Both the position numbers and the translations under genes were made by a program. This document shows, piece by piece, positions 1-35,419 of a DNA stretch of 39,211 nt. The notes beneath the pieces are model-generated. The model made no database searches, was not told the origin of the DNA, and saw only the letters and a list, made by a program, of their open reading frames with translations. Position 1 is the stretch's first letter, and each line of letters begins with the position of its first letter. This DNA is from Abyssibacter sp. (lineage in GTDB: Bacteria > Pseudomonadota > Gammaproteobacteria > Nevskiales > OUC007), in contig JAGLCS010000128.1 of NCBI GenBank assembly GCA_023146115.1, positions 1 through 39,211 on the forward strand, written 5' to 3'.

Positions 1-639
1 CTGGAGCGCTCGCTGGATGAGCTGGGCGTTGCACCGCGTGTGCTCAAGGGCGATGACGCCGAGCAGGTGTTGGCCAAGCTCGAACTGGACGACATGGAAG
101 ATCTTTACGCCAGCATCGGCCTGGGTCGGCGCCTGTCGCCGCTGGTGGCCCGCCTGTTCCTGGAACCTGCTCAGCAGAACAGCGCCATTGCACTGGTCGC
201 CCCGTTGGCGATTCAGGGCACGGAGGGCCTGATCGTCGAGTACGGCGGCTGCTGCCATCCAATCCCCGGCGATCCGATCCGCGGCCATGTCTCGATGGGG
301 CGCGGCATCGTGATTCATCGGGTCGATTGCAAATCCGGCATTCAGAACCGCAAGGGTGGGCCGCATGACTGGGTTTCGTTGTCCTGGTCCGATGATGTCG
401 AGGGTGACTTCATCGTCGAACTGCGGATTCAAGGGCCCAATCAGCGCGGATTCCTGGCCACCGTTGCCACCGAGATCGCCGATGCCGGTTCCAGCATCGA
501 GAACGTGAACATGTCGGACCGGTCCAGCGGGATGGCGGATATGCGCATCAACATCACCATCCGTGACCGCATTCACCTCGCGCAGGTCATGCGCGGTCTG
601 CGACGCCTCGATATCGTCGAGCGCGTGCAACGCAGCTAA
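1..639 (+). CDS. spoT: Bifunctional (p)ppGpp synthetase/hydrolase SpoT, C-terminal part (5' end outside window)
   Basis: Open from base 1; YGGCCHPIPGDPIRGHVSMGRGIVIHRVDC TGS/zinc-finger-type region followed by a C-terminal ACT domain; followed by ridA and recG. Confidence 0.92.
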   Translation: MERSLDELGVAPRVLKGDDAEQVLAKLELDDMEDLYASIGLGRRLSPLVARLFLEPAQQNSAIALVAPLAIQGTEGLIVEYGGCCHPIPGDPIRGHVSMGRGIVIHRVDCKSGIQNRKGGPHDWVSLSWSDDVEGDFIVELRIQGPNQRGFLATVATEIADAGSSIENVNMSDRSSGMADMRINITIRDRIHLAQVMRGLRRLDIVERVQRS

Positions 640-766
640 GGAAACACTGATCTATTCTCACCACCGAGACGGAGTGAGCGCGGTTTGATCATTCCAAATG
701 AGCGAACGACCACGCAGGCTTGCGGGAAAATCGGCAACTTGGCGGCGTGATTAGATCAGTGTTTCC
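640..766 (+). mobile_element. MITE-like element, copy A (127 bp, internally deleted relative to copy B)
   Basis: Perfect 15-bp TIRs GGAAACACTGATCTA (640-654) / TAGATCAGTGTTTCC (752-766), flanked by 4-bp direct repeat CTAA (636-639 and 767-770); internal blocks shared with 17014-17276. Confidence 0.8.
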
Positions 767-795
767 CTAACGTCCCCCATTTATCTGGAGCAACC

Positions 796-15619: not shown

Positions 15620-16993
15620 GTGAAAATCATCATTCTCGGTGCCGGACAGGTGGGCTCCACGCTCGCGGAAAATCTTGCGGACGAGAACAACGACGTCACC
15701 GTGATCGACACCGACGCCGGCCTGTTGCAGGACCTGGCGGATCGCCTCGACATTCGCACCGTCCATGGGTCGGCGTCCTACCCCAACATCTTGCGCCAGG
15801 CCGGCGCTGATGACGCCGACATGATCATCGCCGTCACCGATTCTGACGAGATCAACATGATCGCCTGTCAGATCGCCTACACGCTGTTTCACACCCCGAC
15901 CAAGATCGCTCGTGTGCGCGCCGCCGAGTACCTGAACGAAAAGAATCTGTTCAGTCAGGAAGCGCTGCCGGTGGACATGCATATCAGTCCGGAGCAGCTG
16001 GTCACCGACTACATCCGGCGTCTGATCAAGTATCCGGGGGCATTGCAGGTGGTGGACTTCGCCGAAGGCCGGGTGAGGCTGGTTGGCGTGCGCGCTTACT
16101 ACGGCGGCCCGCTCGTGGGTCAGGAGTTGCGTGAGCTGGCGCATCACATTCCTGGTGTGGAGACGCGCGTCGCGGCCATATACCGTCGCGGCAAGCCGAT
16201 CATTCCCGAGGGCGACACCATCATCGAGGCGGAGGACGAGGTGTTCTTCGTCGCCGATCAGCGGGACATCTCCAAGGTTATCTCCGAGCTGCGCAAGACC
16301 GACAAGGAGGTCAAGCGCGTGATTCTGGCCGGGGGCGGCAACATCGGCCTGCGGCTGGCCCGTGCGCTGGAAGGGCATTGCCAGGTCAAGCTCATCGAGC
16401 GCTCGCGTGAGCGGGCGCGGCATCTGGCCGAACAGCTCAACCACACGGTGGTGCTGGTGGGCGATGCCGCCAGCGAGAATTTGCTGCTGGAAGAACACAT
16501 CGAGTCGGCGGACGTGTTCTGCGCCGTGACCAACGATGACGAGGCAAACATTCTTTCGGCCATGCTGGCCAAGCAGCTGGGTGCCCGCAAGGCGATGGCG
16601 CTGATCAACCGCCTGGCATACGTGGATCTGGTCGAGGGCGGCGCGGTGGACATCGCCATCTCGCCGCAGCAGTCCACGGTGTCGGCGCTGCTGGCGCATG
16701 TCCGGCGAGGTGACGTCGTGCGGGTCCACAACCTGCGTCGCGGCGCGGCCGAGGCCATCGAGGCCGTGGCCCATGGCGATCCCAAGTCATCCAAGGTTGT
16801 GGGGCGTCGCGTCGATCAGATCAATTTGCCCAAGGGCGCGACGATTGGCGCCATCGTGCGTGGTGAGCAGGTGCTAATGGCGCATCATGACACCGTGATC
16901 GAACCCGAGGACCACGTCATCCTGTTCATCGTCGACAAGACGCTCACCCCCAAGGTGGAGCGCCTGTTCCAGGTGGGCGTCACGTTCATCTGA
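15620..16993 (+). CDS. trkA: Trk system potassium transporter NAD-binding protein TrkA
   Basis: [32 protein letters not shown]; duplicated RCK/Rossmann halves. Confidence 0.96.
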
Positions 16994-17013
16994 ACGACGC
17001 CGTGCAGCCCGAG

Positions 17014-17276
17014 GGAAACACTGATCTATTCACACCACCAAGACGGAGTCGGTTTTCCCGCAAGCCCAGGCGGAGCGAGCGCGGTTTGGTCATTCCAAAT
17101 GAGCGACGACCACGCAGGCTTGCGGGAAAACCGGCCCGTTCCATCCGGATTGCGCCTGAAAACGGGCCACGCGGCGTTGCTCGTCGCTTGTTTGGCATGA
17201 CCAAACTTCACTTCTCGCGCCTTGCCTGGCCTGTTTTCAGGCGGCAACTTGGCGGCGTGGATAGATCAGTGTTTCC
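17014..17276 (+). mobile_element. MITE-like element, copy B (full-length, about 263 bp)
   Basis: Terminal GGGAAACACTGATCTAT (17013-17029) / ATAGATCAGTGTTTCCC (17261-17277) perfect 17 bp, extending to 27/30 bp; right flank CTAG, left flank CGAG; three further internal inverted repeats. Confidence 0.85.
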
Positions 17277-17280
17277 CTAG

Positions 17281-18735
17281 ATGGACGACTTCTCCCCAGT
17301 CCAGCGCATCGTCGGCCAACTGCTGATGTTGTTCTCGATCAGCATGCTGCCGCCGGCGGTGGTCGGCCTCTATTTTCAGGATGGCGGCGTGGCGGCCTTC
17401 GTGACCGCGTTCTTCATCACGTTGATCGCCGGTTCTGTGGTCTGGTATCCGGCCCGCCATCAGCATCGGGAACTGAAGATCCGCGATGGCATGCTCGTCG
17501 TCGTGTTGTTCTGGGTGGTGCTGAGTCTGTTCGGCGCGATTCCGCTCTACCTGTTCGAACGGCCGTTCCTGTCGATCACCGACGCGGCCTTCGAAGCGGT
17601 TTCCGGGCTGACCACGACCGGGGCCACGATTCTGGTCGGAATCGATTCCCTGCCGCATTCGGTGCTCTGGTACCGCCAGCAACTCCACTTCTTGGGTGGC
17701 ATGGGCATCATCGTGCTGGCCGTGGCGATTCTGCCGTTGCTGGGTGTGGGGGGCATGCAGCTTTACCGGGCGGAAACGCCGGGGCCGATGAAGGATGCCA
17801 AGCTCACGCCCCGCATTACGGAGACGGCCAAGACGCTCTGGCTGATCTACATCGGCCTCAACGCGGTCTGCGCCGTGGCCTTCTGGCTGGGCGGCATGAC
17901 CTGGTTCGACGCGATCTGCCACGCGGTCTCGACCGTTGCAACCGGTGGGTTCTCGACCCACGACCAGAGCATGGGCTACTACAACAGCGCGGTGCTGGAA
18001 GGCATTGCCGTGGTGTTCATGATTCTCGGCTCGTTGAATTTCGGCCTGCACTATCTGGCCTGGCGGTCAGCCTCCGTCAACGCTTATTTGAAGGACCCCG
18101 AAACGCGCGTGTTCTTTATGGCGGTGGGCATTGTCACCGTCATTGGCACCGGGTATCTGTATCTCGAAGGTACCTATGCGCGGCTGCCGGAGTCATTCAT
18201 GGCGGCGATCTTCCAGGTCGTGTCCATCGGCACAACGACCGGATTCACCACGGCCGAGTACACGCTGTGGCCGAGCTTTCTGCCGATGCTGTTGCTGCTG
18301 GGTTCCTTCGTCGGCGGTTGCGCGGGTGGAACCACCGGCGGCATGAAGGTGATCCGGTTTTCGCTGATCGTGCGGCAGGGGCGGCGAGAGGTGATGCAAC
18401 TGCTGCATCCGAGCGCGGAACTGCCGATCAAGGTGGGTTCCAAGCGGGTGCCGGACCGGGTGATCCAGGCGGTCTGGGGTTTTTTCGCCGCCTACGTGCT
18501 GATATTCGTGACCATGATGCTGGCGCTGATGGGGCTGGGACTGGACGAGGTCACGGCCTGGTCGGCTGTCGCGGCCTGCTTGAACAACCTGGGTCCGGGG
18601 CTGGGCGATGTGGCGACCAACATGGCGTCGGTGGGTGATCCGGAAAAATGGATTCTGATCCTGGCGATGTTCTTCGGGCGGCTGGAGATCTTCACATTGC
18701 TGGCCATCCTCACCCCGGCCTTCTGGCGCCGGTGA
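17281..18735 (+). CDS. trkH: Trk potassium transporter membrane subunit TrkH
   Basis: TTTGATIL, TVATGGFSTHDQSMGYY, GTTTGFTTAEY, CAGGTTGGMKVIR selectivity-filter loops. Confidence 0.96.
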   Translation: MDDFSPVQRIVGQLLMLFSISMLPPAVVGLYFQDGGVAAFVTAFFITLIAGSVVWYPARHQHRELKIRDGMLVVVLFWVVLSLFGAIPLYLFERPFLSITDAAFEAVSGLTTTGATILVGIDSLPHSVLWYRQQLHFLGGMGIIVLAVAILPLLGVGGMQLYRAETPGPMKDAKLTPRITETAKTLWLIYIGLNAVCAVAFWLGGMTWFDAICHAVSTVATGGFSTHDQSMGYYNSAVLEGIAVVFMILGSLNFGLHYLAWRSASVNAYLKDPETRVFFMAVGIVTVIGTGYLYLEGTYARLPESFMAAIFQVVSIGTTTGFTTAEYTLWPSFLPMLLLLGSFVGGCAGGTTGGMKVIRFSLIVRQGRREVMQLLHPSAELPIKVGSKRVPDRVIQAVWGFFAAYVLIFVTMMLALMGLGLDEVTAWSAVAACLNNLGPGLGDVATNMASVGDPEKWILILAMFFGRLEIFTLLAILTPAFWRR

Positions 18736-33557: not shown

Positions 33558-35333
33558 ATGAAATCACGGGTCGCAGGGAGCTTGATGTTGAGCATGGCCG
33601 TCGCGGTCGGACTGGCGGCCTGTGCCGGCGGGGGGGATCGCCAGACGCTAGCGGACCAAGAGCCGGTGCAAGAGCCGGCCACCACTTCGTCGGATCGGGC
33701 GAGCAATGCGACAGTGGCGCAGCCTCCGGCCGACGCTGGGGCCGCGATGGCGCAGGCGGCCAGCCCGAAACAGGCGATGCGATCCGCCCTGTTCGCTCGG
33801 GAGAACATGGCGAGCATGATGCTGCCGCCGCGCATGCCGCCGGCCGCGCCATTCAACCGGGAAGGCTACGAGGCCATCACCGAGAACCGCTTTCACGACC
33901 CGCAGGTCACGCCGTTGTCGACCTTCGGCCTGGATGTGGACACGGCGTCCTATACCAACCTGCGACGCCTGCTCAACGCCGGGCAGACGCCCCCGATCGA
34001 TGCCGTGCGCATTGAGGAACTGGTGAACTACTTCGACTACAGCGAGTTGCCGGTCAGCGGGCGGCACCCGATTCGCCTACGCACGGAGCTGACGGAGGCC
34101 CCCTGGGCTGATGGGCATTTGCTGGCCATGGTGCAGGTGGCCGCACACGCGCCGAAACCGGCGCAGGCACTTCCGAATCGTCTGGTCTTTCTGATCGATA
34201 CCTCCGGCTCCATGCAGGCGCCGGACAAGCTGCCCATGCTGCAGCGCGCTTTCCGTCAGCTCACCGAACAGTTGGGCCCGGAGGATTCGGTTGCGATCGT
34301 GACCTATGCCGGCAACGCCGGCGTCGCATTGCCGGCCACGAGAGGGGATCAGAAGTCCAAGCTCTATGAGGCCATTGGCCGCATGCAGGCAGGAGGCTCG
34401 ACGGCTGGCGCACGCGGCATCGAGCTGGCCTACCAGATCGCGCAGCAACAGTTCGATGCCGAGGCCAACAACCGAGTGATTCTGGCCACAGACGGTGACT
34501 TCAACGTGGGCGCCTCCAGCCAGGGCGAGCTGGTGCGGTTGATCGAACAGCGACGCGACCAGGGCATCTACCTGACCGTGCTGGGTTTCGGCACCGGCAA
34601 CTATCAGGACGGCCGCATGCATCGCCTGGCCGATCATGGTGACGGCAACTACTACTACATCGACACGGATCTGGAGGCGCGGCGGGTGTTGGTCGACAAG
34701 CTCCAGGGCACGCTGGTGACCGTCGCCAAGGACGTCAAGCTGCAGGTGGAGTTCAATCCACAGCGTGTCGCCCAGTACCGGCTGCTCGGCTACGAGACGC
34801 GGGCGCTCGCCGCCGAGGACTTCAAGGACGACCGCAAGGACGCCGGTGACGTCGGCGCCGGCCAGCGGGTGACGGCCTTGTACGAGATCGTGCCGGTGGG
34901 CGCGCAGACCGGCGCCCCTGACGCACTGCGCTACCAGACCCGTAAGCCGACCCCCGCGAGCCAGCGCAAGGACGAATGGATGCTGGTCAAGGCGCGCTAC
35001 AAGCAGCCGGATGGCGGGGCCAGCACCGAGTTGCGTAACGTCGTGGAGGCGGATGTCACCGCACTTGCCCAAGCATCGGCGGATCTGCAATGGGCCGCTG
35101 CAGTCGCTGAGTTCGGTCTGGTGATGCGCAAGTCCGAACACGCCGCCGACGCCAGCTTTGCCGATGTGCTGCGCCGGTCGGAGCGCCTTGCGCAGCGCAT
35201 CGATGACCCTGCCCGGGACGAGTTTGTCGGGCTGGTTCGCCAGGCCAACCTGCTGGCCAAAGCGCCGGAACCGCTCCGCATGGGCCGGGACTATCAGCCG
35301 GCACATCAGACCACCGCGCGGGTTCAGGAATAA
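33558..35333 (+). CDS. von Willebrand factor type A domain lipoprotein (YfbK-like)
   Basis: Lipobox GLAAC; VWA N-terminal domain PLSTFGLDVDTASYTNLRRLL; MIDAS DTSGSM; C-terminal YRLLGYETRALAAEDFKDDRKDAGDVGAGQRVTALYEIVPVG. Confidence 0.9.
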   Translation: MKSRVAGSLMLSMAVAVGLAACAGGGDRQTLADQEPVQEPATTSSDRASNATVAQPPADAGAAMAQAASPKQAMRSALFARENMASMMLPPRMPPAAPFNREGYEAITENRFHDPQVTPLSTFGLDVDTASYTNLRRLLNAGQTPPIDAVRIEELVNYFDYSELPVSGRHPIRLRTELTEAPWADGHLLAMVQVAAHAPKPAQALPNRLVFLIDTSGSMQAPDKLPMLQRAFRQLTEQLGPEDSVAIVTYAGNAGVALPATRGDQKSKLYEAIGRMQAGGSTAGARGIELAYQIAQQQFDAEANNRVILATDGDFNVGASSQGELVRLIEQRRDQGIYLTVLGFGTGNYQDGRMHRLADHGDGNYYYIDTDLEARRVLVDKLQGTLVTVAKDVKLQVEFNPQRVAQYRLLGYETRALAAEDFKDDRKDAGDVGAGQRVTALYEIVPVGAQTGAPDALRYQTRKPTPASQRKDEWMLVKARYKQPDGGASTELRNVVEADVTALAQASADLQWAAAVAEFGLVMRKSEHAADASFADVLRRSERLAQRIDDPARDEFVGLVRQANLLAKAPEPLRMGRDYQPAHQTTARVQE

Positions 35334-35409
35334 CCAAACCGCACTCCTCGCGCCTTGCCTGGCCTGTTTTGAGGCAGCAACTTGGTGGTGTGACCAGATC
35401 AGTGTTCCC
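35332..35409 (+). mobile_element. MITE-like element, copy C (5'-truncated)
   Basis: 82 nt (35332-35413) align without gaps to 17199-17280 of copy B, about 70 identical by eye; right TIR AGATCAGTGTTCCC then CTAG; left half absent. Confidence 0.75.
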
Positions 35410-35419
35410 CTAGTTCTCC

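Follow-up and report, generated by a model that had tools for sequence, protein, structure and literature searches.

A miniature inverted-repeat element with a conserved two-armed interior between trkA and trkH of Abyssibacter sp.

In this work we have analysed a stretch of 39,211 nt from a draft genome of Abyssibacter sp. (the window; its genome is G000, and the congeneric genomes used for comparison are G001 and G002), and in particular the region between its trkA and trkH genes. The trkA ORF (TrkA_N/TrkA_C) ends at position 16993 and the ATG of trkH (TrkH) lies at 17281; between them is a structured element which ends two bases before the trkH start codon. With this insertion the two genes are 287 nt apart, versus 14 nt in G002, and an effect of the insertion on the translation of TrkH is possible. 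The element is short (267 bp) and has no conserved coding, with small frames only and no ORF >100 aa inside, and it is bounded by terminal inverted repeats of 31 nt (Table 1). The window holds two further, incomplete copies: copy A starts right after the stop codon of an ORF with an ACT_4 domain (40-639), and copy C overlaps the 3' end of a gene for a YfbK-like VWA protein (33558-35333). No obvious ribosome-binding site is left upstream of the trkH ATG after the insertion.

Table 1. The element between trkA and trkH, its parts, and its incomplete copies, in window coordinates
Feature	Position	Strand	Remarks
Whole MITE, two-armed, 267 bp	17012..17278	+	between trkA and trkH
Left terminal inverted repeat, 5' side of base stem	17012..17042	+	90% complementary
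a, 5' side of arm 1 stem	17050..17066	+	inverted repeat; covariation
Arm 1 tip hairpin, first part of b	17084..17100	+	GTTTGG TCATT CCAAAT; pair probability 0.975; 3/6 pairs compensated
a', 3' side of arm 1 stem	17117..17133	+	inverted repeat; covariation
Central mini-hairpin between the arms	17140..17150	+	TCC..GGA (other species: CCC-TTCG-GG); fold and consensus fold
c, 5' side of arm 2 stem	17153..17172	+	inverted repeat; covariation
Arm 2 tip hairpin, part of b'	17190..17206	+	GTTTGG CATGA CCAAAC; pair probability 0.96
Arm 2 internal-loop strand, most conserved word of the family	17217..17231	+	CGCGCCTTGCCTGGC; alignments, pattern scan
c', 3' side of arm 2 stem	17224..17243	+	inverted repeat; covariation
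Right terminal inverted repeat, 3' side of base stem	17248..17278	+	inverted repeat; compensatory changes
Copy A	638..769	+	internally deleted derivative; both ends retained, with b and a'
Copy C	35327..35411	+	right-hand part only

An earlier note on this DNA described three interlocked pairs of inverted repeats, a/a', b/b' and c/c', and all three are present. The a and a' repeats match at 17 of 17 positions, c (17153-17168) and c' (17228-17243) sit within a longer pair of 20 nt at 90%, and b (17084-17109) and b' (17181-17206) belong to a longer, weak self-match (53 nt, 72%), a consequence of the 67% match between the element and its reverse complement over the full length. The pairs are beyond chance, as the longest inverted repeat with at most one mismatch in the inner 201 nt measures 19, whereas 40 dinucleotide shuffles gave at most 12. 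The point missed by the earlier note is that two arms, inverted copies of one unit, give the order a-b-a'-c-b'-c'. The homology of the arms makes b and b' complementary, and each of them contains a 6-bp hairpin of its own.

In the predicted fold the ends form a base stem carrying arm 1 (a-b-a') and arm 2 (c-b'-c'), and an independent consensus fold has the same two-armed architecture. The predicted energy is -161.6 kcal/mol (z -13.2 against shuffles), and folded as DNA the element is likewise far more stable than its shuffles. The inner inverted repeats exceed those of all shuffles, and the remark that there is more structure here than a decayed transposon end needs is supported. Searching Rfam with the element gave no family above the gathering cut-off and only sub-threshold matches to miRNA hairpins. 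Could the element then be an RNA switch in the trkA-trkH transcript, in which trkH is regulated by an a+c fold and a b fold that exclude each other? The earlier note had proposed such an alternation, and the complementarity of b and b' at 23 of 26 positions, together with a trkH start codon only two bases away, would fit it. RNA folding upholds the a and c stems, with pair probabilities of 0.997 and 0.969, but not the b/b' helix, with 0.000; the two tips reach 0.975 and 0.960, and imposing the b/b' pairing costs 12.7 kcal/mol.

The same distinction is seen in covariation. Within a genus-level set of 18 full copies, 30 pairs in the ends, the a and c stems and the tips have changed on both sides, a count that none of 500 shuffles reaches and that slid controls (7 or fewer) do not approach, so that a/a', c/c' and the ends strongly pass the check suggested in the earlier note, a comparison of genomic copies for compensatory changes. 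The base stem has compensatory changes in 13 of its 22 pairs, and in the arm 2 stem all four Watson-Crick pairs are used at many positions across genera (146 sequences). The base stem and both arms have thus undergone compensatory evolution. The pairing of b with b' has no such support: one pair of this helix carries a double change in the 18 copies, which is the shuffle level (402 of 500 reach it). The reason for this lack of covariation beyond chance is that each of b and b' folds within its own arm, where it forms the tip hairpin. At columns 76:90 of the left tip hairpin, for example, 12 copies have CG and 6 have UA, and the b/b' pair 76:199 does not form in 12 of the 18; where a change breaks b/b', the compensation lies within the tip hairpin, which counts against b/b' pairing. 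A cis-regulatory RNA switch, which needs two conserved alternative folds, was rejected on this ground.

The element belongs to a mobile family. The draft genome of the window contains 69 local matches in about 40 places, many of them at contig ends, and in G001 the ends gave 70 and 67 matches on the two strands versus 5 and 3 for a control. The trkA-trkH site is without the element in both congeners, and the flanks of the window copy are too diverged from these empty sites for a target duplication to be read. It can be read at an orthologous site in 25 species of Stutzerimonas, where the TA is bare in ten, a full element of 268-326 bp is present in nine, and five more, together with near-identical species, retain 43 bp of the ends as a remnant. 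Sites with an element have the form TA-GGG...CCC-TA, and comparison with the bare TA identifies the target duplication as TA (2 bp); our first reading, a 4-bp YTAR duplication, was replaced once the empty sites had been read. Copies show no preference in gene orientation (11:14) and their neighbour genes are unrelated.

Where is the pairing kept? Among 7 orthologues of the fixed Stutzerimonas site (mean identity 0.947) we counted 1 compensated, 5 one-sided and 22 broken pair types, whereas 8 copies dispersed in G001 (mean identity 0.937) gave 10 compensated, 6 one-sided and 11 broken, a comparison that involves one fixed site, is not corrected for phylogeny and, since it omits two more fixed-site orthologues whose degradation prevented a good alignment, if anything understates the decay. 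This suggests that the fold is kept in lineages in which the element moves and decays after it has settled. A second Stutzerimonas site, considered as a further test of decay, proved to be a young insertion, with a 2-bp gap in the closest relative. The decay in place at one well-sampled site, the empty site in two congeneric genomes and the unrelated genes adjoined in both orientations add to the zero predicted probability and missing covariation of b/b', and we regard a switch that regulates trkH as highly improbable.

The wobble pairs provide information on the strand. Selection for pairing in a single strand is expected to leave more G.T than A.C on the selected strand, and strand-symmetric change to leave equal numbers. 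G.T exceeds A.C in arm 1 (52:30, or 23:8 in 80% clusters), A.C exceeds G.T in arm 2 (159:49, or 53:21) and the two are equal in the ends (66:62); sign tests on the 80% clusters gave p = 0.007, 0.005 and 0.72, respectively, and for arm 1 at 70% clusters p = 0.12. The opposite signs mean that both arms favour the same strand of the unit, on opposite strands of the element, suggesting that each arm folds as a single strand and that the two do so in opposite orientations. One RNA strand of the whole element was rejected as the selected form because the sign differs between the arms.

Two other explanations have to be weighed here. It may be that this is a bidirectional RNA element in which the arm transcribed first would always be oriented CCAGGCAAGGCG..GCAACGCCGCATGG and its hairpin would make insertions into operons tolerable, a candidate effect being to limit polarity or mRNA decay. 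The excess of G.T over A.C in the CCAGGCAAGGCG..GCAACGCCGCATGG orientation of both arms, not seen in the ends, is consistent with this, and the genes on the two sides of a copy run in the same direction in a raw share of 25 of 38. As the pairing decays at one fixed site that is operonic, we consider this explanation possible but rather doubtful. Alternatively, the paired changes could stem from copying between the arms, by template switching at inverted repeats, instead of selection on the fold. The two ends of one copy are alike beyond chance (523 of 560 letters, against a maximum of 492 in 5000 shuffles), although a DDE transposase needs no pairing of the ends, and the ends show no strand asymmetry. 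Arm-to-arm copying is a live alternative in that it could give part of the covariation without selection. It does not, however, predict that the wobble asymmetry has opposite signs in the two arms and, being linked to replication, it would be expected to operate at the fixed site as well, yet there 1 compensated type stands against 22 broken ones; as an explanation of the paired changes at large we consider it, too, possible but rather doubtful.

Family-like ends bound IS5-family transposase genes (DUF4096 + DDE_Tnp_1), a group which we take to be IS427-like, in three hosts: on a Paracoccus plasmid (L304:2501-3342), on an Azotobacter plasmid (L307:2499-4693, interrupted by an IS4-type gene) and in the Salinisphaera genome G014 (L314:1386-2249). 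The last is an IS5-type element with an open frame of 269 codons of the DUF4096 type; its right end GGGCCTGTTGATGTTTC is identical over 17 bases to the MITE end of the same genome, and this genome also carries the two-armed element. Matching autonomous transposons thus exist in other hosts. Like our element, these insertion sequences have ends of the form TAGGG[T/C]CTGTTGACGTTT flanked by TA; the element differs from them in having no transposase, and the similarity is limited to the ends. By analogy, the partner of the window's element would be of the IS5-family DUF4096 type, ending in GGGAAACACTGATC. Searches for this transposase family gave none in the genome of the window or in G001, G003, G036 and G061-G063, and an autonomous element with the same ends was found neither in the window's genome and G001 nor in P. 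profundi and S. nitrititolerans; G002 has a single DUF4096 element with ends different from those of the family. The window's genome and its sequenced congeners thus yielded no transposase bounded by the exact ends of this element. The DUF772 type of IS5 was rejected as a partner, being absent from G000 and G001 and having other ends in G036. So was a transposase between facing ends in S. nitrititolerans, where stretches of 1.6 kb and 3 kb hold ordinary genes. On contig 58 of this species (163250-165150, L265), two facing family ends at a distance of 1648 bp enclose a gene for an AadA_C-domain adenylyltransferase and a DksA-like ORF. The paired hairpins and their inverted arrangement might also recall a REP/BIME-like element, for which the mover would be a single-strand RAYT/Y1 transposase, but a Y1 transposase was not detected in the carriers G000, G003, G036, G010 and G016, and the TA duplication and the IS5-type partner ends contradict this explanation, to which we give almost no credence.

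Our preferred interpretation is that of a MITE on which a DUF4096-type transposase of the IS5 family would act in trans, with duplication of TA. Its interior consists of two homologous hairpin arms, inverted relative to each other, on a base stem made by the ends. DDE transposases are known to need only the ends, so that such a mover does not by itself account for the arms. Perhaps the folded single strand of each arm matters in the mobile phase, either in transposition or in the survival of new insertions, so that spreading lineages would keep the pairing and settled copies decay. The b/b' match is a by-product of the inverted-copy arms and not a regulatory switch. We infer that the fold is tied to mobility rather than to host regulation, and mobility or the tolerance of new insertions are our best bets for the function of the arms. 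That this is a MITE without a switch we hold with high confidence, the link of the fold to mobility is close to an even call, and all of this taken together appears probable to us.

In the usual view a MITE is a pair of ends, with a filler between them that it can do without. In this element the filler is a fold of two arms that covaries and is maintained across large evolutionary distances, apparently when the element is moving and not when it has settled; if this is true, the folded strand matters for the spread of IS5-type MITEs or for the survival of insertions in operons. The element is of a known kind, a MITE of an IS5-family transposase, and its conserved two-armed interior is unusual. 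ERIC is likewise a structured intergenic repeat with a TA target, yet with a Stutzerimonas copy as query nothing similar to the family was found in any E. coli genome. The bacterial MITEs reviewed in PMC10969869 (Correia, RUP, ERIC, QMITE and Chunjie) resemble the element in being short and non-coding, with inverted ends, a duplicated target, many intergenic copies, internally deleted versions and stable predicted hairpins, whereas the typical MITE there is AT-rich and the element GC-rich. It is further distinguished from bacterial MITEs by a pair of homologous arms in inverted arrangement, which have evolved in a compensatory way across Beta- and Gammaproteobacteria, by a near-constant two-arm length with optional three-hairpin modules, and by an arm core that occurs inside unrelated ends. 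The R0, R2 and R6 repeats of Pseudomonas fluorescens, proposed MITEs, are also intergenic inverted repeats forming hairpins, and their listed lengths and single-hairpin description set them apart (PMC2718517). Our literature search by sequence found no description of this repeat family, to which a sizeable group of repeats from Pseudomonas, Stutzerimonas, Azotobacter, Salinisphaera and their relatives can be assigned.

A 22-base two-part pattern from arm 2 occurs in at least 116 stretches of GTDB genomes, with hosts among the matches listed that include Pseudomonas, Stutzerimonas, Azotobacter, Salinisphaera, Solimonas, Chromohalobacter, Variovorax, Ramlibacter, Polaromonas and others. Two viral contigs and few plasmids gave matches as well, and no phage record or E. 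coli genome did. Three architectures are found: two-armed elements of ~262-275 bp with mostly TAGGG-type ends, elements of ~234-248 bp with other ends in Burkholderiales, and one-armed elements of ~160-177 bp with yet other ends. The arm 2 core recurs in elements with unrelated ends in Beta- and Gammaproteobacteria. One-armed relatives of ~164-168 bp which share this core and have unrelated ends are L087, L098, L125, L145, L154 and L169, and their hosts include Nitrosomonadales, Gallionellaceae and Polaromonas. We raise only tentatively the idea of a superfamily of DDE-dependent MITEs whose mobility would depend on a folded single strand; in these, a shared arm module with a conserved internal loop and optional three-hairpin extensions would sit inside unrelated ends across Beta- and Gammaproteobacteria, and its RNA or DNA fold would aid movement or the tolerance of insertions. 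The end-to-end distances in G001 (L241-L260) fall into classes of 45, 56, 82, 97, ~266, 338 and 410 bp. The remnants of 45-56 bp are the ends alone, and the 338- and 410-bp forms are longer by one or two modules of ~72 bp, each of three hairpins, inserted into an arm at its internal loop. Similar extended forms exist in P. profundi and, in our reading, the ~72-bp modules of the two groups are probably homologous, judging by the shared loops CATGGA and CCCGAAGGG.
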